22,907 nt of DNA from a virus. The stretch covers positions 1 to 22,907 of IMG/VR virus record IMGVR_UViG_3300017706_001672. One strand, given 5' to 3'. Shown here piece by piece: positions 1 to 17,964 of the stretch. The translations under genes and the position numbers were made by a program. Position 1 is the first letter of the stretch. Each line of letters opens with the position of its first letter. The notes beneath the pieces were generated by a model. It saw nothing but the letters and a program-made list of their open reading frames with translations, did not search any database and was not told the DNA's origin.

Positions 1-353
1 AAGCAGCTAAATGGAAAGAACTTCCAGAAAATTTACCTAGAGACTTTAAAGGGTATCTTGAAGACTTAAAACTTTCTAAATACTGTTTAAGCCCAGAAGG
101 TAATGGAATAGATTGTCATAGAATGTGGGAATGTCTCTATCTCAAAATAATACCAATTTGTCATAGGAATATACTTACAGAACATTTCGCTAAATTATTT
201 CCAATTATATTAGTCGATGATTGGTTAATTACAGATGAACCAGGAATGAATGTAAATTATTTAGAGGAAAACTATATAAAACTATCAGACTGGAGCAATT
301 ACCATCTGTTAGATCAAGAACAATATCTCAAACATATAAATTTTTATGATTAA
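1..353 (+). CDS. Exostosin-like glycosyltransferase, C-terminal fragment (5' end outside window)
   Basis: The reading frame is open from the left edge (first full codon at base 3) to TAA at 351-353, so this is the last 116 residues of a longer protein. The ATG at 123 is probably internal, because similarity to known proteins starts before it. The stretch reading SPEGNGIDCHRMWECLYL followed by IIPI resembles the nucleotide-sugar-binding part of exostosin-like (GT47-type) glycosyltransferases, where a 'P-x-GNG-x-D-x-HR-x-WE' pattern precedes a short hydrophobic strand. The protein would transfer a sugar from a nucleotide donor. Its stop overlaps the next start by 8 bases, so it belongs to the long co-translated block. 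Donor and acceptor cannot be read from this fragment. Confidence 0.75.
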   Translation, partial: AAKWKELPENLPRDFKGYLEDLKLSKYCLSPEGNGIDCHRMWECLYLKIIPICHRNILTEHFAKLFPIILVDDWLITDEPGMNVNYLEENYIKLSDWSNYHLLDQEQYLKHINFYD

Positions 354-1818
354 CCATAAACATAAATTTATATACCTACATACTCCTAAAACTGGAGGAA
401 TGTCTATAGGTAGTGCGCTATATGAAGCTTTAGGTATAAAAGATATCTATCAATCTTTTCATATACATTATGATGATTTAAATGAAGAAATACTTAGAGA
501 TTATTTTGTGTTTACGTTTGTAAGAAACCCTTGGGATAGGATAGTATCTGACTATAGATATAAAGAAGAAATTAATGCAAACTTTTCTTTTGAATCATTT
601 AGTAATAATCCTCAATTCTGCTATGAACAACAATACAAGACTTCAGTAAAACCAACAGATATAAATTTCTTTGATAATCATAAAGATACTTCTAATTACT
701 TTTCAGAATTTATTCATACTATTTCTCAATTAGATTTTCTTAAAGGAAAATTTAACCACAATATTGATACTTTACCATTTATTAATTTTACAGGTAGATA
801 TGAAAATATAGAACAAGATTTTAAGTATATATGTGATAAGATAGGAATAACAGCTAAGCTTCCCCACAAAAATTTTACTAACTGGAAAAATAAACATTAC
901 TCCTGGTATTTTAAGAATATGAACTTTAATTCTGATATAATTAAAGACAGTGAAAAGTTTAACTATACGTTCGAAAGAAAAGATATAAGTAGTAAAGTTG
1001 ACTACTGGTTTGAAGACTTTAGAAAATATAAACCATTTGATATAGTAGAGTATGACGATGTAGTAGACACTTATTTAAACGTATCTAATAAACTTAAACC
1101 CGACTATGATAAATCGGGTTGGAATGAACGTCCAATTAACTCAGATACGGAAGATATAGATGAAAATAAAAACTGGGATGGCTTTGACCCGGTTTATTAT
1201 AATATTGATCCTACAAAAGAAGGAATAGTAATGGCAAAAGCTGATACTATTTCTATGAATATGTTAGGATACGGAGAATCATGGACTCATTTTATATATT
1301 TAACATTACCTTCTCAGCTAATTACAAAATATATGACTCAAGTACATGATAATAAAGATATTTCTATAGCTAAAAAATTTATTAGGGAAGTAGAGGAGAC
1401 ATACGGTAGTGATGGTTGGAAATATAACAATTGGAAGAAAGTAGAAGCTAAATTTGATAAAAATTACCCTGAGTTTTCTAGCTATACAGATGCTTATGAA
1501 ACCCACAAGTGTCTTAAATGGAAACAAGACTTTGATATTGCGCAATACATATCTATTTATACAAAAGGGTTACTATTCCCTATCTGTTATAACGATAAAG
1601 ACTTTATGTTACGGAGAGGTACTCATAGAGCTTTTCTACTATCAATGACAGGTAGTGATGTACCGATTATATTACAATACGACAAGAGAAAAGGAATAAA
1701 ACAAACCTTTGAAGTTAACACTCCTGAATTTTTCGGAGGTAAGTGTTTGAAAATGATTGTTGACTTAGAAAAACAATCTCAAGAGTACTACATAGAAGGT
1801 AAAAAAATAGTTATATGA
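346..1818 (+). CDS. Sulfotransferase (family 2-like) fused to a GTHR-motif domain
   Basis: This is a two-part protein of 490 residues. Residues 1 to about 220 look like a PAPS-dependent sulfotransferase of the Sulfotransfer_2 type: TPKTGGMS (13-20) matches the 5'-phosphosulfate loop, RNPWDRIVSDY (60-70) matches the 3'-phosphate-binding motif, and TGRYENIEQDF (149-159) is the usual late family motif. It should move sulfate from PAPS to a sugar or other hydroxyl group in the cytoplasm. Residues about 228-490 form a separate domain with RGTHRAFLLSMTG at 424-436. That part is related over its whole length to the protein encoded just downstream at 2473-3312. The GxHR pattern recalls the ParB/sulfiredoxin fold, but this is only a resemblance. 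The ATG start overlaps the previous stop by 8 bases. Confidence 0.8.
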   Translation: MINHKHKFIYLHTPKTGGMSIGSALYEALGIKDIYQSFHIHYDDLNEEILRDYFVFTFVRNPWDRIVSDYRYKEEINANFSFESFSNNPQFCYEQQYKTSVKPTDINFFDNHKDTSNYFSEFIHTISQLDFLKGKFNHNIDTLPFINFTGRYENIEQDFKYICDKIGITAKLPHKNFTNWKNKHYSWYFKNMNFNSDIIKDSEKFNYTFERKDISSKVDYWFEDFRKYKPFDIVEYDDVVDTYLNVSNKLKPDYDKSGWNERPINSDTEDIDENKNWDGFDPVYYNIDPTKEGIVMAKADTISMNMLGYGESWTHFIYLTLPSQLITKYMTQVHDNKDISIAKKFIREVEETYGSDGWKYNNWKKVEAKFDKNYPEFSSYTDAYETHKCLKWKQDFDIAQYISIYTKGLLFPICYNDKDFMLRRGTHRAFLLSMTGSDVPIILQYDKRKGIKQTFEVNTPEFFGGKCLKMIVDLEKQSQEYYIEGKKIVI

Positions 1819-2486
1819 AAACATTAGCAGTTATTATACACGCCAGAATGAAAAGTACTAGATGCCCTGAAAAGCATTTAAGACCTATCAACGAACATGG
1901 TGATACTCTACTCACGATTGCTTTAAATAATGTAAGCAAACTATCTAATGTAGAAGAAAAGTTTTTAGCAGCACATGAGCAAGAGATTATTGATCACTAC
2001 ATACCAGGAGTACAGATACTTCACAGAGAATACGCTTCCGTAGCACCCGGCAATGCTCATCACTCTGTTATGTACAAACACCTAGAAAATGTGGAATCTG
2101 ATTATATATGTAACTATAATCCCTGTCAACCTTTTTTAAACATAGACAAATTACAAACAACTATCGATTGGTTCAAAACTAGTTCTCATGATAGTGCGAT
2201 TACAGTAGCAAGAGAACGTAACTTCTTTTGGAGCGATGGATTGAAACCAGTAAATTTTAAAGAAAACGACAGACTGTCTACTACTTCAGGTCCAAGTTTA
2301 TTTAAAGCTACTCATTCGTTAGTTTTCTATAAGAAAGAATACATGCTTAACAACTGGGAATTATTTTCTAATACTCACAATGATCCTTACCCTTATCAAG
2401 TAGATTGGCCTGAAGAAGAATTAGTAGATGTAGATACAGAATTAGATTTTAAATTAGTCAAAGCATTGAGTAGTGGAATACATTAG
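1815..2486 (+). CDS. CMP-sugar synthetase-like cytidylyltransferase
   Basis: This 223-residue protein resembles the acylneuraminate/KDO cytidylyltransferase family (NeuA, KdsB, SpsF). The N-terminus VIIHARMKSTRCPEKHL (6-22) follows the family pattern I-x-AR-x-x-S-x-R-x-P-x-K-x-L, which binds the CTP phosphates. Later YNPCQPFLN fits the strand that usually carries a Q/DxP motif. The expected reaction is activation of an acidic sugar as its CMP derivative. The NeuB-like gene at 11285 would be the natural supplier of such a sugar, although the two genes are 9 kb apart. The start overlaps the preceding stop as ATGA. The C-terminal half is less typical, so another nucleotidyltransferase or a glycosyltransferase-like role is possible. 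Confidence 0.7.
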   Translation: MKTLAVIIHARMKSTRCPEKHLRPINEHGDTLLTIALNNVSKLSNVEEKFLAAHEQEIIDHYIPGVQILHREYASVAPGNAHHSVMYKHLENVESDYICNYNPCQPFLNIDKLQTTIDWFKTSSHDSAITVARERNFFWSDGLKPVNFKENDRLSTTSGPSLFKATHSLVFYKKEYMLNNWELFSNTHNDPYPYQVDWPEEELVDVDTELDFKLVKALSSGIH

Positions 2487-3312
2487 TAACTATACAAAAT
2501 TTTACACAGATGTTTTTGATGAACTTAAAGTTTTTGATATACTAACATATAGAGATATAGAAAAATTATTTCTAAAAGTAAATAAAATTTTAATTGAAAG
2601 TGGAGAATGGAAGTTAAATGATAGTATAAACAAAGAGTCGTTTAAGAAAACTTTAGTAAAGACTCCTTCTGGTAATGAGAAATATGTTTATGAAAAGGGT
2701 AGTTTAACTAAGAAATATTTAAACTCATATTTAAACATTAAACCTTGTATAACAGGTAAAAGTATACCTAAAGAATCTTATTTAAATTCTAAATTTATAC
2801 TTTTAAGTGTACCAAAAGAAATTATTAATAACTACCAATCATGCAGCATAAGCTCAGACACTTTAGATATAGTAAGAGAATTTGTTAGAGATGTAGAAGA
2901 TACGTGCGGATGGGAAGGAAACTGGAAAGAAGTAGAAAAAATATATGACATAAGATGCGGATCACAAAAATGGAGATCTGATTTTAGTTTTGAATGGTAT
3001 ACTAGTATGAAGAAAGACGGTATAATTTACCCGGCTTTTTTCTTAGATGAAGCTTTTCTTACTAGAGGTACTCATAGAAGTTACTTAGGAGCACTAGCAG
3101 GATATGATTATTTATTTTTCATAAAATATAAATCAGATATTTTTGAAATTATCAGTGGTCGTCAAAGCCATAATAAAAATAGACTACTTGGTAAATTAGA
3201 TCCGGGGTATTGGAGTAATGATAAATTGAGCTTGAATATTAATGTTAAAAATAAATCTATTGTATACAGATTATATAACCAAAAAAAAATAATAGGTAAG
3301 TTAAAATTATGA
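2473..3312 (+). CDS. GTHR-motif protein, stand-alone paralogue of the sulfotransferase C-terminal domain
   Basis: The function is unknown. The protein has 279 residues and starts at GTG 2473. A TGA at 2467-2469 in this frame excludes an earlier start, and no ATG follows for a long way. It matches the last 260 residues of the gene at 346-1818 in order: KVFDILTYRDIEKLFLKVNK (19-38) against KPFDIVEYDDVVDTYLNVSN; EFVRDVEDTCGWEGNWKEVE (136-155) against KFIREVEETYGSDGW; and LTRGTHRSYLGALAGYDY (196-213) against LRRGTHRAFLLSMTGSDV. The G-x-H-R step followed by a small-residue-rich helix resembles ParB/sulfiredoxin-like folds, some of which bind nucleotides. That is a hint only. No membrane segment or signal peptide is visible. 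It sits between a CMP-sugar-synthetase-like gene and a HAD phosphatase, suggesting a role in the same pathway. Confidence 0.75.
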   Translation: MEYISNYTKFYTDVFDELKVFDILTYRDIEKLFLKVNKILIESGEWKLNDSINKESFKKTLVKTPSGNEKYVYEKGSLTKKYLNSYLNIKPCITGKSIPKESYLNSKFILLSVPKEIINNYQSCSISSDTLDIVREFVRDVEDTCGWEGNWKEVEKIYDIRCGSQKWRSDFSFEWYTSMKKDGIIYPAFFLDEAFLTRGTHRSYLGALAGYDYLFFIKYKSDIFEIISGRQSHNKNRLLGKLDPGYWSNDKLSLNINVKNKSIVYRLYNQKKIIGKLKL

Positions 3313-3617
3313 AAACTAAAAAATACGTTATCGATATAGATGATACTATATGTAAAGAAGAAGGACCGGTAATAAGTAGAGTACCTTACCCTGATAGAAT
3401 AAAAAAAATAAATGAGTTATATGACGAAGGTCACACTATTATTTTTTATACTGCTAGAGGGAATAAAAGCGGCAGAGGAGAAGCTTATTATAGGCCGATT
3501 ACAGAATCTCAATTAGAGATGTGGGGATGTAAATACCACCACCTATATTTTAAACCTTTCGATGCTGATATATTTATAGACGATAGAGGTATTCACCCTA
3601 AAGATTTTTTTAAATAA
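3309..3617 (+). CDS. Small HAD-family phosphatase (capless)
   Basis: This 102-residue protein shows all four HAD motifs: DIDDT (9-13, nucleophile D9 and acid D11), FYTARG (motif II threonine), a lysine in YFKPFD (motif III), and IDDRG (motif IV acidic pair). It is about the minimal length for the fold and has no cap domain. It resembles the small 'capsule biosynthesis phosphatases' found in polysaccharide loci and in marine phages. It would hydrolyse a phosphate from a sugar phosphate or similar small molecule in the cytoplasm. The stop overlaps the next ATG by one base. The next gene is a nucleotidyltransferase. The same HAD-nucleotidyltransferase-glycosyltransferase order recurs at 13666-15878, where the first two are fused. 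The substrate is unknown. Confidence 0.85.
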   Translation: MKTKKYVIDIDDTICKEEGPVISRVPYPDRIKKINELYDEGHTIIFYTARGNKSGRGEAYYRPITESQLEMWGCKYHHLYFKPFDADIFIDDRGIHPKDFFK

Positions 3618-4342
3618 TGAAACAGTTTTTTAATATAGTATTACCTATGGCAGGTAGAGGGTCTAGATTTAGACAACAAGGGTATAAAGATTCTAAACCA
3701 TTTATTAATGTAGAAGGTAAACCTATGATTCAAAGAGTTGTGGAAAATCTCAATATAGAGTTCGATAAAAACTTTAAATTTATTATCTTATGTCAGAAAG
3801 CTGATTATGAGCAATATGATTTTACCCTGTTCAATAAAATGATTGGTCATGATAATATAGAGATAGTTAAACTAGATGGAATTACAGAAGGAGCAGCATG
3901 CACACTACTAACAGCTAAAGAGTTTATAGATAATAAAGTTCCTCTCCTAAGTTTTAACTCTGATCAAATGATTGACTACGATCCTAACGAAACATACAGT
4001 AGATTAAGTCTGCATGATGGAGGAATGCCGTGCTTTAAAGGAGATGGTCCTAAATGGTCGTACGCAAAGACTGATGAAGATGGGTATGTGACAGAAGTAG
4101 CAGAAAAGAAACAAATATCAAACGATGCAACTGCAGGGTATTACTATTGGAGTAGAGGATCTGACTTTGTTAAGTACGCAGAACAAATGATAGAAGCAGA
4201 TGACAGATTAAATAATGAATTTTATGTAGCACCAGTATATAATTATGCTGTTAAAGATGGAAAACGTATCGTAATAACACAAGTTGATAAAGTATACCAA
4301 ATGGGTACACCAGAAGACTTACAAGAGTACTTAAATGGATAA
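3617..4342 (+). CDS. Sugar-phosphate nucleotidyltransferase-like protein
   Basis: This 241-residue protein has the N-terminal signature of the NTP_transferase family: LPMAGRGSRF (9-18), with KPFINVEGKPMIQRVVENL shortly after. These are the nucleotide-binding glycine-rich loop and the conserved lysine region seen in glucose-1-phosphate thymidylyl-, cytidylyl- and uridylyltransferases. SFNSDQMIDYD supplies the usual metal-binding aspartate after the second hydrophobic strand. The expected reaction joins an NTP with a phosphorylated sugar or alditol to give an activated donor. It is clearly paralogous to the C-terminal half of the protein at 13666-15042, sharing MAG-x-GSRF, GKPMIQ-x-V-x-ENL and TEGAACT. 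The base and sugar specificity cannot be read from sequence alone. Confidence 0.85.
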   Translation: MKQFFNIVLPMAGRGSRFRQQGYKDSKPFINVEGKPMIQRVVENLNIEFDKNFKFIILCQKADYEQYDFTLFNKMIGHDNIEIVKLDGITEGAACTLLTAKEFIDNKVPLLSFNSDQMIDYDPNETYSRLSLHDGGMPCFKGDGPKWSYAKTDEDGYVTEVAEKKQISNDATAGYYYWSRGSDFVKYAEQMIEADDRLNNEFYVAPVYNYAVKDGKRIVITQVDKVYQMGTPEDLQEYLNG

Positions 4343-4982
4343 AAAAAAACGTATTGCCATTTGTTTTTTTGGTCAAATTAGAACACTAAAGATAATAGAA
4401 GAAACATACAGTAAACTTAATATTGAAAACTGTGATGTTGATTTATTTATTAGCTCTTGGGATGACTTTCATGATAAAACCAGTTTTGTAAACTTTACAG
4501 ATACTGAGTTTCTTAAACCTCATGAACGTCAATATGTTAATAATACAGAAAAAGCAGCGTATACTATCTACAGAGTCAACAATATAAAAACTTCTTACGA
4601 AATATGGAATGATTTTACATATGACTATATTATGTGGACTAGAAGTGAAATACTATTCGATAAAAAAACCTTAGAAGAATACTTTAGCAGTAAAATAAAA
4701 AAACAAACAAACGAAATAGAACTACTAAGTAATATAGTAAGAGATAAAGACGATAGTGTTTACTTACATGCTGACTACTCTTTCTTTGGACCTTCTCATA
4801 TTTTTGATATATATGCTACAGGATGGAAAAGTATTTTTAAAGCACAAAAGTTACCCCTGACTCATGGAGGTCACAACTATCATGCAGAAGTAATTACTCA
4901 GAATAACATTAAAGTTAATCAGATTAAACTTCACCATTTATTCCAATATGGTAAATTAGAAAAAAGACAATTAAATGAATAA
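4335..4982 (+). CDS. Glycosyltransferase-like protein, paralogue 1 of 3
   Basis: The protein has 215 residues. It opens with IAICFFGQIRTLK (7-19), then DVDLFISSWDD (34-44), YDYIMWTRSEILF (96-108) and YSFFGPSHIFD (148-158). The same order of elements occurs in the proteins at 15039-15878 and 16958-17608. A Rossmann-like first strand, a 'D-x-F-x-x-x-W' second strand and a 'TRSE/D' acidic step in place of DxD recall small GT-A-like families seen in polysaccharide loci and marine phage genomes. I infer a sugar or polyol transferase acting in the cytoplasm, with unknown donor and acceptor. It overlaps the nucleotidyltransferase gene by 8 bases, which may supply its donor. Confidence is good for the gene and moderate for the role. 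Confidence 0.6.
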   Translation: MDKKKRIAICFFGQIRTLKIIEETYSKLNIENCDVDLFISSWDDFHDKTSFVNFTDTEFLKPHERQYVNNTEKAAYTIYRVNNIKTSYEIWNDFTYDYIMWTRSEILFDKKTLEEYFSSKIKKQTNEIELLSNIVRDKDDSVYLHADYSFFGPSHIFDIYATGWKSIFKAQKLPLTHGGHNYHAEVITQNNIKVNQIKLHHLFQYGKLEKRQLNE

Positions 4983-5898
4983 ACCTATAACATACGCTTA
5001 TTTAGAGACTACAAACTATTGTAACTTACAGTGTTCTTTTTGTAACAGAGATGAAGTAATTGGAGCTTTACAACATATGCCGTTATCTAAGTATAAAAAA
5101 ATGTTAGAGAACCTTAAACACCACCCAATAAAAGAAGCTAAGTTAATGGGTATGGGTGAACCAATGTTACATCCTCAATTCGATGAAATATGTAAAACTT
5201 TCAAAGAGGTATTTCCTGACGCTTTCTTAATTGTTGCAACCAATTGCCAGTACCCTATCAGACCAGAATCTAAAATGGGTAAAAAGTTTGAAGAGTGTAT
5301 GAAATATATTGACTTAATGTACTTTAGTATAGACGGATACAAAGATTCATACGAAAGAGATAGGTCACCTGCTAAATGGGATAAGTTAATGAGGTTTCTA
5401 GATGATTTCAAAGATATGGATAGACATGGCTGCAGGGTTACATGTAATTATGTAGTGAACACTAATAATATACAAGATATCCAAACTATAAAAGACGAAA
5501 TTGTGGATGTATACGGGTTAGAGGAGTTAAGACTTAATATTGCTCAAGATTGGAGTGAAGATAAGAGTATGCCAGGTGGATATACATTAGACCAAATAGA
5601 TTATTTAAATAAAAACTGGAAAAACGAAATAAAAGGTAAAAGTGAATGGGACTTTCCTGATTGTTTCTGGGTTAAAGAAGGTATCTACACTACTGTAGAA
5701 GGGCATGTTAAAATGTGCTGTTTAAATACTGGAGCAGACCCATTTGGTAATTTATTTGAAAATACAATCGAAGAAATTAGAGATACTAAAGATTATAAAG
5801 CTGTACAAGGAGGATGTGCGACTAATAACCCTACTAGTCACTGTTTAAATTGCTCTTATAAGGAATTAGCACCATTACTTAGTCAGATAAGAAAATGA
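4975..5898 (+). CDS. Radical SAM protein with SPASM-like C-terminal cysteines
   Basis: This 307-residue protein has the radical SAM cluster motif C16-x3-C20-x2-C23 in TTNYCNLQCSFCNR, followed by KLMGMGEPMLHP, which fits the GGE-type SAM-binding strand. The C-terminus holds further cysteines (CFW, MCC, GGC and the CLNC pair near the end) with the sequence FGNLFENTIEEI between them. That is typical of a SPASM/twitch domain binding auxiliary 4Fe-4S clusters. Such enzymes use a 5'-deoxyadenosyl radical to modify peptides or sugars, for example epimerisation, dehydrogenation or cross-linking. Its place between glycosyltransferase-like and SGNH genes makes a sugar or a glycan-linked group a plausible substrate, but a virion peptide is equally possible. 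It overlaps both neighbours (8 and 4 bases). Confidence 0.88.
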   Translation: MNKPITYAYLETTNYCNLQCSFCNRDEVIGALQHMPLSKYKKMLENLKHHPIKEAKLMGMGEPMLHPQFDEICKTFKEVFPDAFLIVATNCQYPIRPESKMGKKFEECMKYIDLMYFSIDGYKDSYERDRSPAKWDKLMRFLDDFKDMDRHGCRVTCNYVVNTNNIQDIQTIKDEIVDVYGLEELRLNIAQDWSEDKSMPGGYTLDQIDYLNKNWKNEIKGKSEWDFPDCFWVKEGIYTTVEGHVKMCCLNTGADPFGNLFENTIEEIRDTKDYKAVQGGCATNNPTSHCLNCSYKELAPLLSQIRK

Positions 5899-6782
5899 TA
5901 GACTTAAAGGTTGATAAAAATAAAAGTTATACGATAGTAGGAGCAGGTTGTTCTCATACTCAAGGTAGTGCTTTCACTGTATTCAAAGAAAACAAATTAG
6001 AATGGGCTACTAAAGCTATAAAAGATAAATATAGTACTTTATGTACACCAGATTTTGTTACTAACAACCTTACATGGATGGCTAAACTATCTAAACATAT
6101 TCCTATACATAATATTATCAATTTAGGTCTAGGAGGTTATGGAACAACAACATCTGTAAGACATATAAAAGAATATTTAAAGAGCAAGACTGATATTAGT
6201 GACCATATTTTTATAATTCAGTTACAAAATGTATTTCGAAACGAAATTATTAACAAAATTTTTAATCCTTTTACTACTATAGACTCAATAAATCATTTTT
6301 TGAATAGAAAAGAAATAGATGCTAAATTTCGACAATCTTATTTAGATTTACTATTTAATGAGAGGGTTGAAGAAGCTGTATACTTAAAAGAATTATTATT
6401 TCTTCAAAATATTATCACTAAACTAGGAGGTCAAGTTAGAATTTTCTTTCAACCCTGGTATACTTTTCGTATCTTTAATAAAAAAGAAAGAGATGAAATA
6501 GATGGAACGTTTTACTCTGTAGATAGAAAATCTTTCTATGTTAATGAACATAAAATAAAAAATACTATAGAAAATTTAAACATAATTTCTTTACATAATA
6601 ATAATAAAGAGTACGATATAGGAGAACTTTTAGGAAGAAATATCAGACCCACTCTGCATAATGAAAATCTAGTCCCTGATGATCACCACTTATCAGAACT
6701 AGGGAATAGTTTAGTAGCTAAAAGTATATTCTATAATATAAATAATAAATTTGAAGCATATGATGAAGAAACACCTGTATAA
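5895..6782 (+). CDS. SGNH-hydrolase-like protein, paralogue 1 of 3
   Basis: This 295-residue protein has features of the SGNH/GDSL fold. VGAGCSHTQG (15-24) carries the likely nucleophile S20 in block I. NLGLGGYGTT (76-85) matches the glycine-bearing block II. DDHHLSELGN (262-271) matches the C-terminal Asp-x-x-His block with a helix-capping pattern. Block III is not a clean GxND, so the oxyanion Asn is uncertain. Family members are O-acetyl esterases, acyltransferases or lipases, and in polysaccharide loci they often add or remove O-acetyl groups. No signal peptide is visible, so it should act in the cytoplasm. Related proteins lie at 10465-11301 and 12890-13669. The start overlaps the radical SAM gene by 4 bases. 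Confidence 0.7.
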   Translation: MIDLKVDKNKSYTIVGAGCSHTQGSAFTVFKENKLEWATKAIKDKYSTLCTPDFVTNNLTWMAKLSKHIPIHNIINLGLGGYGTTTSVRHIKEYLKSKTDISDHIFIIQLQNVFRNEIINKIFNPFTTIDSINHFLNRKEIDAKFRQSYLDLLFNERVEEAVYLKELLFLQNIITKLGGQVRIFFQPWYTFRIFNKKERDEIDGTFYSVDRKSFYVNEHKIKNTIENLNIISLHNNNKEYDIGELLGRNIRPTLHNENLVPDDHHLSELGNSLVAKSIFYNINNKFEAYDEETPV

Positions 6783-9983: not shown

Positions 9984-10486
9984 CTTTAGAGACTTTTGAA
10001 AAATATAAACCTGCATTTGACTATATTACGAAAAACCGTCCTATGCATATATTAGAATATGGAGGAGGACAAAGTACCTACTATATCAACGAACATTTAG
10101 ATAACTTAGGATACGGAGGAAAAGTAACAGCTTTTGAAGATAATCCTGAATTCTATAATTATGCAGTAGAAAAAGGGTGGAATACAAAAGATAGTATTAA
10201 ATTAGCTAATATTGAAATGATTGACTACGATGAAGGTATAGTTAGATACATACATACTCTAGATGAAGTCAAAGATGTTGATTTTATTATACTAGACGGT
10301 CCTGATTACCGAATACATACTCAATCAAATGGTACTCCTTCTGGTACCACCGATAATATACAGGTACTAACAAACGAATTAGGTAGAGATATCCCTTTTT
10401 GGATAGAAGGAAGAATAGGCTGTCAGGAATACTATAGGGATTTAGGTTTTAATATGGTAACAGAATGGGACGAAGTAAAGGGATAA
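9980..10486 (+). CDS. Class I SAM-dependent methyltransferase-like protein
   Basis: This small protein of 168 residues has the Rossmann-like features of class I methyltransferases. HILEYGGGQST (23-33) corresponds to motif I (E/DxGxGxS). VTAFEDNPEFY (49-59) has the acidic residue that binds the SAM ribose. DVDFIILDGPDYR (99-111) is the fourth-strand motif. The C-terminal FWIEGRIGCQEYYRDLGF is compatible with the late beta hairpin. The length is short for a full methyltransferase, and the middle region after residue 110 is abbreviated. It could methylate a sugar hydroxyl or a small precursor, or bind SAM without that activity. The start overlaps the dehydrogenase stop as ATGA, and the next gene begins 22 bases before its end. 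Confidence 0.65.
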   Translation: MTLETFEKYKPAFDYITKNRPMHILEYGGGQSTYYINEHLDNLGYGGKVTAFEDNPEFYNYAVEKGWNTKDSIKLANIEMIDYDEGIVRYIHTLDEVKDVDFIILDGPDYRIHTQSNGTPSGTTDNIQVLTNELGRDIPFWIEGRIGCQEYYRDLGFNMVTEWDEVKG

Positions 10487-11301
10487 AAAAATTAGTAAGT
10501 TTCGGGTGTAGTTTTGTAGAAGGAGCTGCTATTACCGATAAAGTAGGACATTGGGTAGGCAAAAGATATGCTTTTCCAACTACTATAAGTTCTGAACTTG
10601 GTGTTACTGACTATAAAAACTATGGACATTCTGGTTACGGTAATGAATCTATACTAAGAAGTATTCATCGTCACTTTAAACAGGATATTGACCATTCAGA
10701 CACTCTAGTAATTATTGGACTATCAGGTATTACTAGGCATGAAATTTACTCTAACTACCAACAAAAGCATTACGATAATCATCTTTTTGATTATAAACAA
10801 CGCGATAATAATGACGTCTTTGCTTATAAACGTAGAGCTAAAAAATGGTTAGGAAAAGAAGCATTATGGGTAGATTTTAAAACTTATATTCATATAGAAC
10901 AGAAATACTTTTTTGACCTTGCTTCAAAACAAGAAAAGCTCCAATGGCAGATTAGCCACTTAGACGGTTACTTTAAAAATAAAGGTATTAAGTATGTTTT
11001 ATTTAATAGTATAGAAGATAATTTAGGAGATATAAAAAAAGACATAAACTACCTTAGTTTAGTTAATGTTAATGAACACAAAGATGTTAGTTTATCTGGT
11101 ATAACTAATATAGAAGATACATGGAACATTAAATTAAGGTTACAGCATTATTACAATGTAAATAAAAACTTTAATATAGAAAAATTCAGAAGCCAAAAAC
11201 CTCCTTACGGTAAGTACTACTGTGCTGGACACCCATCACCTAATGCTCATAAGGAGTTAGCAAATACAATATTAAAATATATAGATGAAAATAATATCTG
11301 A
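10465..11301 (+). CDS. SGNH-hydrolase-like protein, paralogue 2 of 3
   Basis: This 278-residue protein carries VSFGCSFVEGAA (11-22, nucleophile S16), KNYGHSGYGNES (51-62, block II), LVIIGLSGITRHEIY (81-95, in the place of block III) and a C-terminal AGHPSPNAHKELA (254-266) that supplies the histidine of the 'HPSxxGH' block. It is closest to the protein at 12890-13669, which shares the I-G-[LW]-S-x-I-x-R strand, and more distant from 5895-6782. A classical block III asparagine is replaced in both. An O-acyl esterase or transferase role on the glycan is likely but untested. No export signal is seen. The ATG at 10465 lies inside the methyltransferase gene (22-base overlap), and the sequence between it and the block I motif is short, supporting this start. 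Confidence 0.7.
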   Translation: MGRSKGIKKLVSFGCSFVEGAAITDKVGHWVGKRYAFPTTISSELGVTDYKNYGHSGYGNESILRSIHRHFKQDIDHSDTLVIIGLSGITRHEIYSNYQQKHYDNHLFDYKQRDNNDVFAYKRRAKKWLGKEALWVDFKTYIHIEQKYFFDLASKQEKLQWQISHLDGYFKNKGIKYVLFNSIEDNLGDIKKDINYLSLVNVNEHKDVSLSGITNIEDTWNIKLRLQHYYNVNKNFNIEKFRSQKPPYGKYYCAGHPSPNAHKELANTILKYIDENNI

Positions 11302-12118
11302 GTTATGTCAAAATCACAACGGTGATAGAGATTTATTAGAAAGAATGGTTAAAAATGCTGCAGTATGTAGCGATATAGTTAAGATACAATCCATAAAAGC
11401 TAATACATTTACTTATAGAAAGGAGTATGAAGAATATAGACCATACGAACCAGAGTTTGTTAGATTAAAAGGTTTAGAGTTATCTAGAATAGATGAAGAA
11501 TTTTTTATCTTTAAATGTATGGAGTATGGAGTTGAATCAATGACTACTATATTTGTTCCTCAACACGCTCCTAGGTTTAACGAATTAGGTTACGATAACT
11601 TAAAACTATCAGGCTACTCTATTCCTGCATTTGATTATGGTAAAAAATTAAAAAGCTTTAAGTTTAAAAGATTATTTTTTTCAACTTCAAGTTTAACTAT
11701 AGAAGAGATAAAACAAACTGTTAAGAATTTAAATGAGATGGGGATTGAGTACTATATGTTACAATGCACATGTGTATACCCAACTCCTCTATCTAAACTT
11801 AACTTACAAAATATAAATTACTTTAGAGATAAACTAGGAGTTAAGAATGTTGGATTAAGTGATCATACTAATCCTCATGAAGATAACCTACTATCTTCTA
11901 AGTTAGCTATATTTCAAGGTATAGACGTATTAGAAAGGCATTTTACTGTACTTAATATAGATGAAACTAGAGACGGTAAAGTATCAGTTACTCCAAAGAT
12001 GATGTCAGAGATAAAAAGATTTAGTACTTTATCAAAAGATGATCAGTATCGTGAACTTAACGAGTTCAACGAACAACAAATATTTAATCACGATTATTAT
12101 AGAGGAAGATTTAAATGA
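11285..12118 (+). CDS. NeuB-like nonulosonate synthase lacking the SAF domain
   Basis: This 277-residue protein has the TIM-barrel motifs of N-acetylneuraminate/pseudaminate/legionaminate synthases: ISELCQNHNGD (4-14), VKIQS (32-36, active-site lysine), LQCTCVYPTP (159-168), VGLSDHT (189-195) and LERHFT (216-221). These enzymes condense phosphoenolpyruvate with a six-carbon N-acetyl sugar to give a nine-carbon acidic sugar. Characterised members are about 340-350 residues and end in an antifreeze-like SAF domain that caps the partner active site. Here the protein stops right after the barrel, so that domain is absent. The usual GPDH-type motif near the end is altered to TRDGKVSVTP. The CMP-sugar-synthetase-like gene at 1815 is a possible partner. 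The start overlaps the SGNH gene by 17 bases. Confidence 0.85.
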   Translation: MKIISELCQNHNGDRDLLERMVKNAAVCSDIVKIQSIKANTFTYRKEYEEYRPYEPEFVRLKGLELSRIDEEFFIFKCMEYGVESMTTIFVPQHAPRFNELGYDNLKLSGYSIPAFDYGKKLKSFKFKRLFFSTSSLTIEEIKQTVKNLNEMGIEYYMLQCTCVYPTPLSKLNLQNINYFRDKLGVKNVGLSDHTNPHEDNLLSSKLAIFQGIDVLERHFTVLNIDETRDGKVSVTPKMMSEIKRFSTLSKDDQYRELNEFNEQQIFNHDYYRGRFK

Positions 12119-12906
12119 AAATAAGTTTTATTATATGTTATAGTTCAACCTGGCCAATGACTGTGTTCGATAAAGAAATGCATCCAGAGGTCGATAAAGA
12201 GTTAGACAAAAAAATACTGGAACAAACCAATAGACTAATCAAACAGATATTAGGATTTAGAAATCTAGCTAAAGAGATTATACTAGTTGATAATTCTAAT
12301 GATTTTGTTACTGATATTAATTCGGATCATCTATTTGTCATAAAAGGAGCAGAAGTAACTGAAGATAATAATCAAGCTAAAATTACTGCTGAAGCATATG
12401 ATATAGGTATAAAACGTGCTAAAGGCACACACTTAGTTATTCAGCATAACGATACTCAATACTTAACTGATTACTATCCACCTGATGAATTATTTGTTGA
12501 CTTTGTAAAAACTTTAGACGATTTTAGATTAGAATATATTACAGTAGATACTAAACCATCAAAATCAGCAAGTCAAGAAGAAAGTTTTTATGCTGATTGT
12601 TACTGGTTTTTATGCAGAGCTGATTTTTATACCAAACACGATATTAAAGTAGGATATCTTAAAGGAGATAATAACCATGATGCTACTATTACTTGCATTA
12701 AAAAGAAATTAAAGTTCTTACATCTACCTGGTTACTATGAAATAGGCTTAGATATGAATCACCATATCAACTTAAGAAGGAATTACCCTGGACTAGGTAA
12801 GCTATCAGGAAACATACATACACTTTTTAATATCCCATTTCTATACCACTATAAAGGAGGAACTGGATTGGGCAACTTAATACATAAACATGATATTATT
12901 TACTAA
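12115..12906 (+). CDS. GT2-like (GT-A fold) glycosyltransferase
   Basis: This 263-residue protein begins with ISFIICYSS, and then has EIILVDNSND (54-63), the nucleotide-binding aspartate step of GT2 enzymes. GIKRAKGTHLVIQHNDTQYL (98-117) matches the 'G-x-x-x-A-x-G-x-x-hhh-hhDxD' segment, but the DxD is read as HND. The downstream segment contains CYWFLCRADFY and DNNHDAT, which sit where GT2 enzymes carry the ED catalytic-base motif. It probably transfers a sugar from a nucleotide donor on the cytoplasmic side. There is no C-terminal membrane segment, unlike many GT2 enzymes that act on lipid carriers. The overlap with both neighbours (4 and 17 bases) keeps it in the block. Confidence 0.72.
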   Translation: MKISFIICYSSTWPMTVFDKEMHPEVDKELDKKILEQTNRLIKQILGFRNLAKEIILVDNSNDFVTDINSDHLFVIKGAEVTEDNNQAKITAEAYDIGIKRAKGTHLVIQHNDTQYLTDYYPPDELFVDFVKTLDDFRLEYITVDTKPSKSASQEESFYADCYWFLCRADFYTKHDIKVGYLKGDNNHDATITCIKKKLKFLHLPGYYEIGLDMNHHINLRRNYPGLGKLSGNIHTLFNIPFLYHYKGGTGLGNLIHKHDIIY

Positions 12907-13669
12907 CGGAGATAGTTGGACACAAGGAGATTCCCCAGCACAGACTTTAAACTGGGAAGCAAAAAAAACATTAGATTGGTATAACATAGTTCCTTTTTTC
13001 GGGCAATTCTATAAACATATCAATGACAAAGGTAAAGCAGATCCAATGTTAAACACTAGAGCTGAATATAAATTCTATGATTCACCAGTCTGGCCAAAAG
13101 AATTAGGTTCTAGATTAGGAGTTGAAACTTGGAATGCTGGAAGATTAGGTGACGGTAATGCTGATATTAAAAGTTCTACTATACAAAGTATTGAATGGTT
13201 GAAAAAACAAGGTAAAAAAGATATATTCGCTGTTATAGGCTGGAGCAGTATAATAAGAGTTCCAATTTATACAGTCGATTGTGAAGGTAAAACACAATTA
13301 GACCAACAGAGACCTGATAAGTATGCAGCTGCTAATGAAATTTACCGTAGAACTAATCATATACAAAACGAGTTTTTACATCACATATTAGATCTTCAGA
13401 ATTATTTTAAAGTAAACAATGTTAATTATTTAATGTTTAATGCTTTTGATCATTTTTTAGATTTTGACAGACATTTTTTATCTTCTGCAATAGATAAAAC
13501 TAAATGGATTAATCATACAGTTAAACCAGCACATTTTAAAGAATACATTTTTCAAAAATTTAAATTGAATAACTGGAGTGAAAGTCCTTACTTCATAACA
13601 GCTCACCCTAGAGATGTTTCTCATAAAGCTTGGGCTAAGTACCTATATAATTACATACAATCATTATGA
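12890..13669 (+). CDS. SGNH-hydrolase-like protein, paralogue 3 of 3
   Basis: This 259-residue protein starts almost directly with block I: ILFTNGDSWTQGD (2-14) with the canonical G-D-S and nucleophile S9. TWNAGRLGDGNAD corresponds to block II, and FAVIGWSSIIRVPIY matches the strand of the relative at 10465 (VIIGLSGITRHEIY). The C-terminal ITAHPRDVSHKAWAKYL carries the HP-x-x-x-x-H pattern. Of the three SGNH genes in the window this one has the most standard GDS box. The expected activity is esterase or acyltransferase acting in the cytoplasm, perhaps tuning O-acetylation of the phage-made glycan. The start lies 17 bases inside the GT2-like gene, and the end overlaps the HAD-nucleotidyltransferase fusion by 4 bases. 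Confidence 0.75.
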   Translation: MILFTNGDSWTQGDSPAQTLNWEAKKTLDWYNIVPFFGQFYKHINDKGKADPMLNTRAEYKFYDSPVWPKELGSRLGVETWNAGRLGDGNADIKSSTIQSIEWLKKQGKKDIFAVIGWSSIIRVPIYTVDCEGKTQLDQQRPDKYAAANEIYRRTNHIQNEFLHHILDLQNYFKVNNVNYLMFNAFDHFLDFDRHFLSSAIDKTKWINHTVKPAHFKEYIFQKFKLNNWSESPYFITAHPRDVSHKAWAKYLYNYIQSL

Positions 13670-15042
13670 GTGCAATAAAGTTAATAATATTTGATTTAGA
13701 CGGAGTATTAGTAGAAGCTAAAAATATACATTTTGACGCTCTAAATGAAGCATTAACAAGTATCAACCCCGGTTATAAAATAGGTTGGTCAGAACATTTA
13801 AATACTTACGACGGTTTAAAGACATTTCAAAAACTAGATCTACTAACTAAAGAAAAAGGATTACCAGCTGAAGTACATAACGAAGTTTGGAATAAAAAAC
13901 AACAGTTAACATTGCGAAAACTTTCTGATTTAGAACCAAATGAAGATTTAATAGCTACATTTCAGTTACTTTATAAAGATGGTTTTAAACTAGCAGTGTG
14001 TTCTAACTCTATTAGAAGAACAGTACTTACTGTACTAGCTAAGCTTGGACTAATAGAGTATTTAGATCTTATCATATCAAATGAAGATGTTACTAATAGC
14101 AAACCACACCCAGAAATGTACTGGAAAGCTATCTCAACTATGAGTATGCTTCCCGAAGAAACTTTAATAGTAGAAGATTCTCCTTATGGATTACTTGCCG
14201 CCGCGAGAAGTAAATCGTATATTTTAAGAGTAAAGAATCCTAAAGAGGTAACATATAATAATATTATGAATAAAGTAGATACAGTAGATAACGGAGAGAA
14301 ACAAGCAACACCAGCTTGGAGAGACGATAACTTAACAGTACTTATTCCAATGGCAGGAGCAGGAAGTAGATTCGAACAAGCCGGGTATACTTTTCCCAAA
14401 CCTTTAATAGACGTTAAAGGTAAGCCAATGATTCAGGTAGTAACTGAAAATTTAAATATTAAGGCTAACTTTGTTTATGTAGTACAGAAAGCACATAGAA
14501 AGAAATATAATCTAGATACTCTTTTAAACTTAATAACTCCTAAATGTAAAATAGTCGAAGTAGAAGGAGTAACAGAAGGAGCAGCATGTACAGCTCTGCT
14601 AGCTAAGAAGTATATAGATAATGATAAACCTTTATTTTTTGCCAACTCAGATCAATTTGTTGAGTGGGACAGTAATGAATTTTTATATAAGATGAATGAA
14701 ACAGAGGCTGATGGCGGTATAGTTACATTCAAAGCTACTCATCCTAAGTGGTCATTTGCAAAAGTAAATGAGGAAGGATTAGTAACAGAGGTAGCAGAAA
14801 AAAATCCTATATCTGATACTGCTACAGTAGGATTTTACTATTGGAAAAAAGGATCTGATTTTGTTAAATATGCCGAAGAAATGATAGATAACAATATTAG
14901 AGTAAATAACGAATTTTACGTTTGCCCTGTATTCAATCAAGCTATTGAAGATAATAAAGCTATAAGAATATTCAACGTAGATAATATGTGGGGATTAGGA
15001 ACACCTGAAGATTTAAAATACTATTTAGAAAACATAAGATGA
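13666..15042 (+). CDS. Fused HAD phosphatase (beta-phosphoglucomutase-like) and nucleotidyltransferase
   Basis: This 458-residue protein has two enzymes in one chain. Residues 1-210 are a HAD protein of the beta-phosphoglucomutase/phosphatase group with an alpha-helical cap: IIFDLDGVLVEAK (7-19, D10 and D12), HFDALNEAL at the cap start, AVCSNS (motif II), SKPHPEMY (motif III lysine) and LIVEDSPYG (motif IV). Residues about 222-458 are a nucleotidyltransferase beginning LTVLIPMAGAGSRFEQAGY, with GKPMIQVVTENL, TEGAACTALL and FANSDQFVEWD. The latter half is paralogous to the stand-alone protein at 3617-4342. The fusion suggests that the phosphorylation state of one substrate is adjusted just before or after activation with a nucleotide. 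A linker of about 12 polar residues joins the domains. The gene following is again a glycosyltransferase-like one. Confidence 0.88.
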   Translation: MSAIKLIIFDLDGVLVEAKNIHFDALNEALTSINPGYKIGWSEHLNTYDGLKTFQKLDLLTKEKGLPAEVHNEVWNKKQQLTLRKLSDLEPNEDLIATFQLLYKDGFKLAVCSNSIRRTVLTVLAKLGLIEYLDLIISNEDVTNSKPHPEMYWKAISTMSMLPEETLIVEDSPYGLLAAARSKSYILRVKNPKEVTYNNIMNKVDTVDNGEKQATPAWRDDNLTVLIPMAGAGSRFEQAGYTFPKPLIDVKGKPMIQVVTENLNIKANFVYVVQKAHRKKYNLDTLLNLITPKCKIVEVEGVTEGAACTALLAKKYIDNDKPLFFANSDQFVEWDSNEFLYKMNETEADGGIVTFKATHPKWSFAKVNEEGLVTEVAEKNPISDTATVGFYYWKKGSDFVKYAEEMIDNNIRVNNEFYVCPVFNQAIEDNKAIRIFNVDNMWGLGTPEDLKYYLENIR

Positions 15043-15878
15043 AAATAGCAGTACTTATTAACGGTAGCGGAAAACATTTAGATATTACTCAACATCTATT
15101 TGGACATTGGAATAAACTCTATAAAAACATAAGTTTTGATTTCTACTTAGCTACTTGGCAAGATGAAATAGATTATACTAAATATAAATGGATAAAATCT
15201 TATGTAAGACTTAAAGAAGAGGCGTGTCCATATGATCTAAGCTCACACCCTAAAGGTCAGCACCAACCTCATTACTCATACTCCTTATATAAAGCAGATC
15301 AATTGAGAAAAGAATCAGGTATAGAGTATGATGGAGTATTTCAAACTAGATCAGATATTTTTATATTTAGAGAACTATTAGATTTACTTACTTCTCTGTA
15401 TACTATTAAACAAGGTATCAATCAAGATGTGAGTAATAGCCAAGTATCACCTAGAATAATGTTTACTGGAAGCGGAAATGAACTTCTCAACGGTAGGTTT
15501 TGGACTCAAGATTACTTTTTCTTTGGTCATCCAAAAGCATTCGATAAATTTTCTAATATGTTTATTGATGTATGGATTAAAAACGAATTACCTGATAGGT
15601 TAAAATTAATGCATGTAATGCAAGCAGAATATTTACATAAATTAGGAATATATAACAGTAGCATAGCTAATTACCCCGGTCATGCGGTACAAAGCGTACT
15701 CATAAGAGAAAAGCATCGTTTTGGTCATCATAGTACTCATACTGATGCAGGATGGGAAAAACAGCACCCTTCTCCTAGACAACTTAAAACTCTAATAGCT
15801 CAGAATGGACCAGAGCACTTATTAACTAGAGATATAGCACCTAAAGCTATCATATACTTTGAAAGCACAGATAAATAA
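15039..15878 (+). CDS. Glycosyltransferase-like protein, paralogue 2 of 3
   Basis: This 279-residue protein begins KIAVLINGSGKHL. It then has SFDFYLATWQDE (32-43), YDGVFQTRSDIFIF (97-110) and DYFFFGHPKAFD (158-169). These align in order with the protein at 4335-4982 (VDLFISSW, YIMWTRSEILF, FFGPSHIFD). The TRSD step is a candidate metal- or donor-binding acidic motif. It is longer than its relatives because of insertions between the elements and a histidine-rich C-terminal stretch around HRFGHHSTHTD. I infer a transferase using the product of the nucleotidyltransferase encoded immediately upstream, as the same gene order occurs around 3617-4982. No membrane segment is visible. Specificity is unknown. 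Confidence 0.6.
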   Translation: MKIAVLINGSGKHLDITQHLFGHWNKLYKNISFDFYLATWQDEIDYTKYKWIKSYVRLKEEACPYDLSSHPKGQHQPHYSYSLYKADQLRKESGIEYDGVFQTRSDIFIFRELLDLLTSLYTIKQGINQDVSNSQVSPRIMFTGSGNELLNGRFWTQDYFFFGHPKAFDKFSNMFIDVWIKNELPDRLKLMHVMQAEYLHKLGIYNSSIANYPGHAVQSVLIREKHRFGHHSTHTDAGWEKQHPSPRQLKTLIAQNGPEHLLTRDIAPKAIIYFESTDK

Positions 15879-16324
15879 TGATACTTATATCTCATAGAGG
15901 AAATATAGACGGACCGAACGTTGATAACGAAAATAAACCTTCGTATATAGCAAATGCAATAGATAGAGGTTACGATTGTGAAGTAGATTTTTGGTATACT
16001 GATAATAAATTTACTTTAGGTCACGATAACCCCCAGTATGAGATACCAATAGAGTTTATACAGACATATTACAATAGGTTATGGATACACTGCAAAAATT
16101 ATGATGCTTTATCTAAATTAATTGAAATAGATAGAGGTGGTGTGTATTTAAATTATTTTTGGCATGAATCAGACGATGTTATTATAACTTCAAAAGGATA
16201 TATGTGGGCTAATCCCGGTGTCTATATAGAAGGTAGTATAGCAGTACTTCCTGAGTTAAAAAACGATAACTTAACAGACAGATTAGGAGTCTGCAGCGAT
16301 TATATTATTAACCATGAGCACTAG
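15878..16324 (+). CDS. Short GDPD/PLC-like phosphodiesterase
   Basis: This 148-residue protein has the catalytic pattern of glycerophosphodiester phosphodiesterases: ISHRGN (4-9, H6 and R7), GYDCEVDFWYTD (31-42, metal-binding E35 and D37) and LGHD (47-50, H49). A later LWIHCKNYDAL fits the next strand of the TIM-barrel family, where a lysine or glutamate is usual. Most GDPD proteins are 230-300 residues, so half the barrel seems reduced or missing. Short versions of this kind could still be active, or act on a simpler phosphodiester. A glycerol-phosphate-type substituent or a nucleotide-activated alditol would be a logical substrate in this block. The start shares one base with the preceding stop. 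Confidence 0.75.
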   Translation: MILISHRGNIDGPNVDNENKPSYIANAIDRGYDCEVDFWYTDNKFTLGHDNPQYEIPIEFIQTYYNRLWIHCKNYDALSKLIEIDRGGVYLNYFWHESDDVIITSKGYMWANPGVYIEGSIAVLPELKNDNLTDRLGVCSDYIINHEH

Positions 16325-16961
16325 ATTTGTAAAAAGAGGTAATAAAGTTATACTCGGTATGGCTAAAAACGGTAGCCAAGCTCTCAAACAACTTTCTTAT
16401 AGTAATAAAGATTGGATAAGAACAGAAGGCGATATACCTGAGGAAATTTTAATCGACTATAGGATGACTATCTATATACCTATTAGAGATGAGTTTGATA
16501 GAGCATACAGTGGATTGATACAACTGCTCAATGATATTATAGTAGATGAAAAAATAAAAGATATTCAACATTATCTTTGGAACAATATAGTTTTAGATAG
16601 TAGTTATTACCCTAAAATATCTTATAAAAAGATAACTACTATACATTATTTTTGGAGCTATATATTTCTTAATAAAAAATGGAAAGGAGCTAAATTTAAA
16701 TTCTTCAATTTAAAATATCTGTCTAATAGATTTTGTGACCATATTAAAGAAGATCGTAAAAATATTCCCTTATACAATACTGCTGTTAAGAGCCCAGTAA
16801 AAGTTGAAATAATGAAGAACCTTCCCTCTAAAGAGTTACTTTTTAAAAACTACTTTCACCCGCATTGGAAACAACCATATCAATTTATGGAAAAACCAAT
16901 CTGGAAAAGATTAAAGAGCACAGATTACTGGTTAGATTTAGAAGATAAAAATCTTTTATGA
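16314..16961 (+). CDS. Divergent sulfotransferase-like protein
   Basis: This 215-residue protein has two segments that recall sulfotransferases. GMAKNGSQALKQL (15-27) resembles the 5'-phosphosulfate loop (PKTGSxSL), and IYIPIRDEFDRAYSGLIQLL (53-72) resembles the 3'-phosphate-binding motif (hhhRNPhxRhhSxY). The spacing between the two is about right. The rest is lysine- and aromatic-rich without further recognised motifs. If the resemblance is real it would be a second PAPS-dependent enzyme, together with the fusion at 346-1818. Because the proline before the lysine is missing and the loop is atypical, I keep the functional claim modest. The start overlaps the GDPD gene by 11 bases, and the end overlaps the next gene by 4. 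Confidence 0.5.
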   Translation: MSTRFVKRGNKVILGMAKNGSQALKQLSYSNKDWIRTEGDIPEEILIDYRMTIYIPIRDEFDRAYSGLIQLLNDIIVDEKIKDIQHYLWNNIVLDSSYYPKISYKKITTIHYFWSYIFLNKKWKGAKFKFFNLKYLSNRFCDHIKEDRKNIPLYNTAVKSPVKVEIMKNLPSKELLFKNYFHPHWKQPYQFMEKPIWKRLKSTDYWLDLEDKNLL

Positions 16962-17608
16962 AAAAAGCAATCTTTATTTCAGGACATTTAAATGGTTTAT
17001 CAAATAATATTTTACCATTATTAGATTTAAATACTGATATATTTGTGCATACTTGGGAAGAACAAGGTTACCGTAGATGGGTAACAAAATTAAATAGGTA
17101 CAATAAAAACTGTAACAGTATAAACATCAGTACTGAAAAACCAAAGATTGATCGTAAAAGAATTTCTTACCTTTATTCAACATATTCCTCTTTTAAATTA
17201 TGTGAACAATTAAACACTTATGATATCTGTATAAAATTTAAACCTAACTTAGACACAGATACTATTAAATACAGTACTGATACACAAACAAGTTTTACTA
17301 AAGCTAAATTACAATCTAGACCACTTCTTGAAGGGTACACAAAAGAAGATTGCGTATACGGCACAGTACATTATAAAAGTATAGACGAGAGATTCTTTAT
17401 AATATACCCTAAAGGTATAAATAAAGTATTTTATAAGGATAAAAAAACATTTTACGAAGAAATAACAAGGACAGATGAATTACTTAGTTCACTACTAGGA
17501 GCAGATTATGAAGGTAGTTTACTATGGACTAAATTATTTGAACAAAATCAAGTACCTATAATTCAAGATATTAATCTAACTTTACCAAACAATAAACAAT
17601 GGCAGTAA
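16958..17608 (+). CDS. Glycosyltransferase-like protein, paralogue 3 of 3 (divergent)
   Basis: This 216-residue protein begins KKAIFISGHLNGLSNNI. It then has TDIFVHTWEEQ (26-36), matching the 'D-x-F-x-x-x-W' strand of the proteins at 4335 and 15039. YDICIKFKPNLDTD (88-101) sits where the others have YDYIMWTRSEILF and YDGVFQTRSDIFIF. Here the TRSD/E step has become KPNLD, so any metal-binding or catalytic residue is shifted or lost. The final FFGP/FFGH element is replaced by a region around RFFIIYPKGINKVF. It is likely a distant member of the same family, acting on a related substrate, or an inactive relative. It is the last enzyme-like gene of the block. Confidence 0.5.
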   Translation: MKKAIFISGHLNGLSNNILPLLDLNTDIFVHTWEEQGYRRWVTKLNRYNKNCNSINISTEKPKIDRKRISYLYSTYSSFKLCEQLNTYDICIKFKPNLDTDTIKYSTDTQTSFTKAKLQSRPLLEGYTKEDCVYGTVHYKSIDERFFIIYPKGINKVFYKDKKTFYEEITRTDELLSSLLGADYEGSLLWTKLFEQNQVPIIQDINLTLPNNKQWQ

Positions 17609-17943
17609 AAAGAGCAAAAAAATTAAAAAAGCAAGATTTTGACAACGTTAAAATTATAAAATCTAGAATAGATAGAGCTGACGAAGAATATATAAAGATA
17701 GGTAAACTAAAAGTAGAGTTAACTAAAAAAATACTTCAATCTATTTCCGGTATAAATTCTACCGATAATTTAAAAACTATAGGTAAATATGAACTATATA
17801 TTAATAAGACCAGAATAGCTCTCGAAACTTTTATTTCTGAAACAGATAAACAAAATGTCGAACTAGCTAAAGACTTACAGAAAAAATACGGTCCCGGTAC
17901 TATAAATCCAGATAAAGGTACTTTTATTCCTAATCCACTTTAG
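17599..17943 (+). CDS. Small phage protein, coiled-coil rich
   Basis: The function is not known. This protein of 114 residues is basic and rich in Lys, Ile and Leu. It has predicted helical, coiled-coil-like character over most of its length (roughly residues 15-95) and ends with QKKYGPGTINPDKGTFIPNP. A C-terminal 'KYG-x-G-x-I-N...G-x-F-x-P' tail is, from memory, common in small proteins of marine T4-type phages, which suggests a phage-specific structural or accessory role rather than sugar metabolism. It overlaps the last glycosyltransferase-like gene by 10 bases and is followed by the only sizeable break in the first 18 kb. It may be a conserved phage gene marking the border between accessory and core regions. 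Confidence 0.6.
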   Translation: MAVKRAKKLKKQDFDNVKIIKSRIDRADEEYIKIGKLKVELTKKILQSISGINSTDNLKTIGKYELYINKTRIALETFISETDKQNVELAKDLQKKYGPGTINPDKGTFIPNPL

Positions 17944-17954
17944 ACTTTTAGTAT

Positions 17955-17964
17955 CTATTTATAT
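17955..17964 (+). promoter_or_regulatory. CTATTTATAT motif upstream of the sheath gene (distal copy)
   Basis: This is one of five copies of a [AC]TATTTAT[AT] motif found in the short gaps ahead of tail genes. The reverse complement of the core is the T4 late-promoter box TATAAATA, so orientation is unexpected if it is a T4-type late promoter for these genes. The AT-richness makes chance matches easy. Confidence 0.25.

Follow-up and report, generated by a model that had tools for sequence, protein, structure and literature searches.

The IMG/VR virus record IMGVR_UViG_3300017706_001672 is 22,907 bases long, and all of it, hereafter the window, was analyzed; the genome it comes from is known solely from this 22.9-kb record. 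The presence of gp18, gp19 and a gp26-like gene together with families of sugar enzymes marks it as part of a T4-like genome with a multi-gene set for sugar activation and transfer. In order, 22 genes (g01–g22, positions 3–17608) are followed by the small g23, the tail sheath gene gp18, gp19, the gp26-like gene and, last, a long gene for a possible tape measure protein. The original prediction, made from the sequence alone, was of a 23-gene glycan-type block directly before the tail sheath gene. The position was right, but the glycan part comprises 22 genes, since g23 adjoins gp18 in block-free loci too and probably encodes a virion protein, and the operon starts before the window.

Packing of the Block

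Overlap is found at each of the 22 junctions between g01 and g23, and their coordinates bear out the predicted range of 1–23 nucleotides (nt): eight overlaps are of 4 nt, four of 8 nt, two of 1 nt and the remainder of 10–23 nt, with the g09/g10 overlap being 23 nt if the ATG at 6760 is used and 32 nt if the TTG at 6751 is used. Downstream there are intergenic gaps of 104 nt (g23–gp18), 42 nt (gp18–gp19) and 111 nt (gp19–gp26). Across 30 related loci, some of which derive from common contigs, 424 of the 473 junctions within the block are overlapping or abutting, versus 2/34 junctions after gp18, gp19 and gp26. As g01 is cut off by the start of the record, and four related loci (L131, L132, L136 and L140) extend upstream without any gap of at least 30 nt, the window begins mid-operon. 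No membrane segment was found in g01–g23, the top 19-residue Kyte–Doolittle mean (1.71) lying within a HAD domain, which agrees with the earlier statement that the block encodes no flippase, polymerase or membrane protein.

Conservation among Viral Relatives

Relatives were gathered by a gp18 search of viral contigs (80 loci) and by alignments for two block proteins, the radical S-adenosylmethionine (SAM) enzyme of g08 (61 loci) and the NeuB-type synthase of g15 (44 loci). Many of the gp18 loci have the same block immediately before gp18 and others hold different cargo or tail genes there, i.e., the block occupies a cargo slot of variable content within the structural module, bounded by fiber-type genes and gp18, and gp18 is in the flank of 32/44 NeuB loci. 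Block order is mostly that of the window (median Kendall tau 0.87, and at least 0.95 in 31 of the 69 loci with at least eight single-copy block genes, some of which share contigs), and the relatives' blocks show lineage-specific losses and insertions. Two gene pairs are strictly kept: g10 is downstream of g08 in 61/61 radical SAM loci, no more than two genes away in 55 of them, even where most other block genes are missing, and g12 directly follows g11 in all 31 NeuB loci that have both. The expectation of a co-expressed glycan-type unit that co-occurs with gp18 was supported, as the same set recurs in 61 and 44 viral loci, and the conserved order and g08–g10 pairing contradict the opposite scenario, in which related phages carry these genes singly and at random. 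A second phage lineage (L118, L156 and L171) has the cassette but no recognizable gp18 close to it, and in L118 the cassette is followed a few kb downstream by a terminase-like gene; the cassette therefore seems to move as a unit.

The varying content of the slot is one reason to ask whether the block is passive cargo, i.e., glycan genes acquired at a recombination hot spot that have no selected function in the phage, a possibility raised for the lipopolysaccharide (LPS) clusters of cyanophages (PMC3037559). The ratios of nonsynonymous to synonymous substitution rates (dN/dS) contradict this: against the closest relative (L089/L128) they are 0.03–0.20 for g01–g22 and a comparable 0.04–0.15 for g23 to gp26, so that every measured gene is under purifying selection and the block genes are functional and selected rather than stuffer. 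With reading frames and couplings intact, order largely kept, and strict gene pairs found over independent metagenomes, passive cargo is the least probable of the explanations considered here.

A Promoter-like Element and the Extent of the Operon

Elements of the form TATTTAT/TATTTATA are present at window positions 17956, 19813, 20401 and 21423, before gp18, gp19, the gp26-like gene and g28. On the complementary strand, TATTTATA reads as the late promoter sequence of T4, TATAAATA; the T4 sequence itself was considered as the window's element and rejected, since it shows no excess in the window. Among relatives, TATTTAT occurs no more than 110 nt upstream of gp18 in 77/77 cases, gp19 in 82/82, gp26 in 67/72 and g28 in 46/49, and of block genes in just 28/634, and it also precedes structural genes of Flavobacterium phage immuto, the nearest cultured relative by gp18. 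From this association we infer that TATTTAT is the late promoter of this phage group. A strong terminator-like hairpin (ACCCGG-ATTTTT-CCGGGT-TTTTG, window ~20353–20375), omitted by the terminator scan, lies in the interval between gp19 and the gp26-like gene.

The extent of the unit is best seen in a 191-kb relative (G603), whose block of ~32 kb is ungapped save for one 38-nt gap that itself contains TATTTAT. It begins behind a TATTTAT element with a tail-fiber gene of the S74 (endosialidase-chaperone) type and ends at g23–gp18; after the fiber gene are two adjacent GT7 galactosyltransferase-like genes fused to LamG lectin-like domains (L308 12831–15628), and then the cassette. Layout and element together suggest that the block is a single long operon, continuous with the fiber genes and probably expressed late.

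Gene Content

The enzymes originally named from the sequence fared unevenly (Table 1): the assignments of g02, g03, g06, g08, g10, g12, g15 and g18 were substantiated, and those for methylation (g13), O-acyl editing (g09, g14 and g17) and glycosyl transfer (g01, g07, g16, g19 and g22) proved weak. The two halves of g02 are separate genes in many relatives (e.g., L136, L149 and L151). The top NCBIfam matches of g03 are Kdo and PseF cytidylyltransferases, with all equivalog cut-offs missed, and a search with g03 alone against solved structures gave no match. For g08, the closest solved structures are SkfB and BtrN. The g15 product has 277 residues, its sole match is the NeuB barrel, and the C-terminal SAF (antifreeze-like) domain is absent; the positions aligned to the metal and active-site residues E25, K53, H215, E234, H236 and D247 of NmeNeuB are conserved, and the alignment is ambiguous for the counterpart of E134.

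Table 1. Features of the block and its downstream border, in window coordinates.
Feature	Position	Strand	Assignment and support
g01	3..353	+	Exostosin/GT47-like, weak; Pfam match below cut-off; same position in relatives
g02	346..1818	+	Sulfotransferase fused to g04-type domain; PF03567 E 8e-11; phrog_3347
g03	1815..2486	+	CMP-sugar (Kdo/nonulosonate)-type cytidylyltransferase; PF02348 E 4.5e-9
g04	2473..3312	+	New family; invariant GT/SHR (RGTHR) ParB-like motif; no Pfam or PDB relative
g05	3309..3617	+	Small HAD phosphatase, EcbF/BcbF-like; phrog_1238 E 2e-25; TIGR01689 below cut-off
g06	3617..4342	+	Sugar-phosphate nucleotidyltransferase; PF00483; phrog_3980 E 1e-67
g07	4335..4982	+	Putative glycosyltransferase-like family, from context; phrog_13607
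g08	4975..5898	+	Radical SAM/SPASM enzyme, cassette core; PF04055 and PF13186 above cut-off
g09	5895..6782	+	SGNH-like hydrolase by motif (sequence inspection only); no Pfam match
g10	6760..7767	+	Class I/II PLP enzyme, closest to HisC and CobD; PF00155 E 1e-33
g11	7751..9169	+	New family; N half HPGxTR motif, C half weakly GT-A-like; no Pfam or PDB relative
g12	9162..9983	+	D-2-hydroxyacid dehydrogenase family; PF02826 E 1.4e-23
g13	9980..10486	+	Methyltransferase-like; profile weakly matches O-methyltransferases
g14	10465..11301	+	SGNH-like (DUF6071), below cut-off
g15	11285..12118	+	NeuB-type PEP-condensing synthase without SAF domain; PF03102 E 7e-30; nearest solved SiaC/NeuB
g16	12115..12906	+	GT2-like glycosyltransferase; PF00535 E 0.004, below cut-off
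g17	12890..13669	+	SGNH-like (DUF6071); PF19547 E 1e-7, above cut-off
g18	13666..15042	+	HAD (beta-PGM type) and nucleotidyltransferase fusion
g19	15039..15878	+	Putative glycosyltransferase-like; phrog_13607
g20	15878..16324	+	Small GDPD-like protein; profile matches 3i10 (a GDPD) E 1.7e-4
g21	16314..16961	+	Sulfotransferase-like by motif (sequence inspection only); no Pfam match
g22	16958..17608	+	Putative glycosyltransferase-like; kept beside g23/gp18
g23	17599..17943	+	Small protein; 72-member family at gp18, block present or not
TATTTATA	17956..17963	+	Late-promoter-like element upstream of gp18
gp18	18048..19799	+	Tail sheath; 65% identity to Flavobacterium phage immuto

The products of g04 (whose domain recurs in the C-terminal part of g02) and g11 represent two new protein families. 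Their predicted models are confident, with pLDDT (predicted local distance difference test) values of 90 for g04 and 82 for g11 (AlphaFold), but neither had a good match among solved structures; the C-terminal half of g11 reaches at best a Z of 3.8 against GT-A folds (VIA-align); an absent fold match is no proof of a new fold. Both carry a ParB-like motif, an invariant G-T/S-H-R in g04 (also in the C-terminal part of g02) and HPGxTR in g11. A check of the ParB/Srx fold for the two proteins gave no ParB Pfam match and a single weak row, to KorB, with a Z of 2.5, and with the motif alone in its favor an identity as ParB/Srx kinases is not claimed.

Radical SAM enzymes, pyridoxal phosphate (PLP) enzymes and nucleotidyltransferases serve many small molecules, and the g04 and g11 families are without known relatives, all of which would suit enzymes that act on phage DNA, nucleotides or a small molecule and not on a glycan acceptor. 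However, the combination of sulfotransferases, a cytidine monophosphate (CMP)-sugar-type ligase, NeuB and SGNH-like proteins is that of glycan chemistry, no DNA-modification family was found, and such a non-glycan target is very unlikely.

Incompleteness of the Pathway

The idea that the block is a complete phage-encoded pathway was not supported. The window is a fragment, its NeuB is SAF-less, and a hydrolyzing UDP-GlcNAc 2-epimerase (PF02350) is missing from the window's Pfam matches; the pathway in the window is thus incomplete, and some precursors would have to be supplied by the host or by other clusters of the phage. Among large related records, which may themselves be fragments, PF02350 is absent in 9/10, including the block-bearing 191-kb one, and present in 1/10, and a PF01943 flippase was not found in 8/8. 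The 191-kb relative has a second sugar cluster (L307 4887–15010) with a DegT aminotransferase, a dehydrogenase, epimerases, GT4-type transferases and an acetyltransferase, of which all but DegT were assigned by reading the sequence.

Relatives in Cells and Cultured Phages

A search of 50,697 phage records gave no match for NeuB, g03 or g11 and only fragmentary matches for the radical SAM protein, and a search of the available literature found nothing on phage nonulosonate synthesis or on the C. difficile flagellin genes. The sole block genes shared with cultured cyanophages are the g18–g20 pair, which are in other operons there. A g18-type HAD–nucleotidyltransferase fusion also occurs in several Legionella species at 51–53% identity (L187–L193 and L198). 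In cells, a SAR11 genome has g18–g20 homologues in a surface-polysaccharide-type cluster, with a short NeuB of another subfamily, and in a Bacteroidia metagenome-assembled genome NeuB stands beside a g12-like dehydrogenase (PGDH) among O-antigen-type genes. Neither group was accepted as a source: 197 SAR11-family genomes had only distant matches to the radical SAM protein, and 395 Bacteroidia genomes only weak g08 matches and two closer NeuB relatives. The nearest cultured relative by gp18 infects Flavobacterium, and the phage itself probably infects marine Bacteroidota.

Such cellular neighborhoods lend themselves to a different role for the block, in which its soluble enzymes would make activated sugars and act, in the infected cell, on lipid-linked precursors of LPS or capsule. 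Host flippase and polymerase would export the products, which would block superinfection or reshape the receptor. A role of this kind has been proposed for the glycosyltransferases of pelagimyophages (PMC7029224). Remodeling of the host surface is a close second choice, less probable than modification of the virion: the continuity with fiber and sheath genes and the promoters of late type suggest that the block is expressed late, at a stage where exclusion would be less useful, and the block is without an acceptor-side or membrane gene.

Comparison with Known Systems

Large glycan or LPS gene clusters, of unproven function, are known from the marine T4-like cyanomyoviruses P-SSM2, S-SSM7 and S-SM2, where they are located near hli03 or phoH (PMC3037559). 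These are likewise big glycan sets in T4-like phages, but they are not at gp18, and the gp17–gp18 interval of P-SSM2 is without glycan genes. The host recognition cluster (HRC) of pelagimyophages, which contains tail-fiber and glycosyltransferase genes in the VrlC–gp14 interval (PMC7029224), is, like the block, a hypervariable island in the structural region, but at a different site. In the glycan operons of S-CAM9 and S-PRM1 the genes overlap, as in the block, and homologues of g18 and g20 are among them; these operons differ in not being beside gp18 (in the 41-kb stretches compared), in their other partners and in having no NeuB or g08 match. Phage immuto shares with the window the gp18/gp19 neighborhood, a g23-like gene and the TATTTAT elements, but its slot holds fiber, lysozyme and hypothetical genes instead of glycan genes. 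The block is therefore distinct from known phage glycan clusters in location and gene set, yet of their kind.

Among bacterial systems, a Wzx/Wzy-type O-antigen cluster has a membrane flippase and polymerase, in contrast to the block with no hydrophobic segment in g01–g23. Nonulosonate pathways have in common with the block a NeuB-type synthase and a PLP enzyme, and their CMP-ligase has a putative counterpart in g03. The islands for flagellin glycosylation resemble it in consisting of soluble enzymes with no flippase; the flagellin genes of C. difficile include a HisC-like enzyme, a HAD protein and a nucleoside triphosphate transferase. Compared with these nonulosonate and flagellin systems, the block is without the SAF domain, no Maf-like transferase was identified, and the NeuC-type epimerase is absent in most large relatives.

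A Proposed Role in Virion Glycosylation

We favor virion glycosylation, with a probability of about 0.45–0.5, and place host-surface remodeling second. In this proposal, the block would be one long, translationally coupled and probably late operon for modified sugars, occupying the cargo slot from tail-fiber-type genes to g23–gp18 in T4-like phages related to immuto. NeuB (g15) would form a keto-sugar acid from phosphoenolpyruvate (PEP), which the g03 CMP-ligase would activate, and the nucleoside triphosphate transferases of g06 and g18 would activate sugar phosphates. Tailoring of the sugars would fall to the g08 radical SAM enzyme and its g10 PLP partner, the g12 dehydrogenase and the HAD phosphatases, and soluble transferases and sulfotransferases would attach and finish them. 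The acceptors are most likely virion proteins, which would be glycosylated in the cytoplasm by analogy with flagellins, because all of the enzymes are soluble, there is no flippase or polymerase, the block is continuous with tail-fiber and sheath genes, and the promoters are of late type. A more specific and more tentative version is that tail or tail-fiber proteins bear a phage-made, sulfated, nonulosonate-like glycan, produced by a cassette with a new radical SAM/PLP pair together with g04 and g11. The sequences directly show the gene content, the overlaps, the conservation, the selection and the association of the promoter-like element; timing, reaction order, sugar and acceptor are all inferred in this proposal.

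Several points weigh against it. Adjacency to tail genes would be equally expected from a generic cargo hot spot, and the gp17–gp18 and HRC regions of cyanomyophages and pelagimyophages hold unrelated cargo (PMC3037559, PMC7029224). The relatives of g18–g20 and of NeuB with PGDH in cellular surface-polysaccharide-type clusters fit work on the host surface. No Maf-type protein glycosyltransferase was seen, and the putative transferases g01, g07, g16, g19 and g22 have weak or no profile matches. Finally, the promoter role of TATTTAT is drawn from conservation and not from a mapped promoter.

Implications

Large marine phages have been recognized as carriers of glycan clusters from the first cyanophage genomes onward, but it had not been settled whether these clusters function, 'stuffer DNA' having been mentioned (PMC3037559). 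For one family, selection, conserved gene pairs and operon structure answer it: the block is a maintained functional unit, which the phage likely uses to decorate its virions or else the surface of its host. It also offers enzymes that can be tested, i.e., g08 with g10, g15 and g03. If virions are indeed the target, then these phages would own a glycosylation system like that of flagellins.

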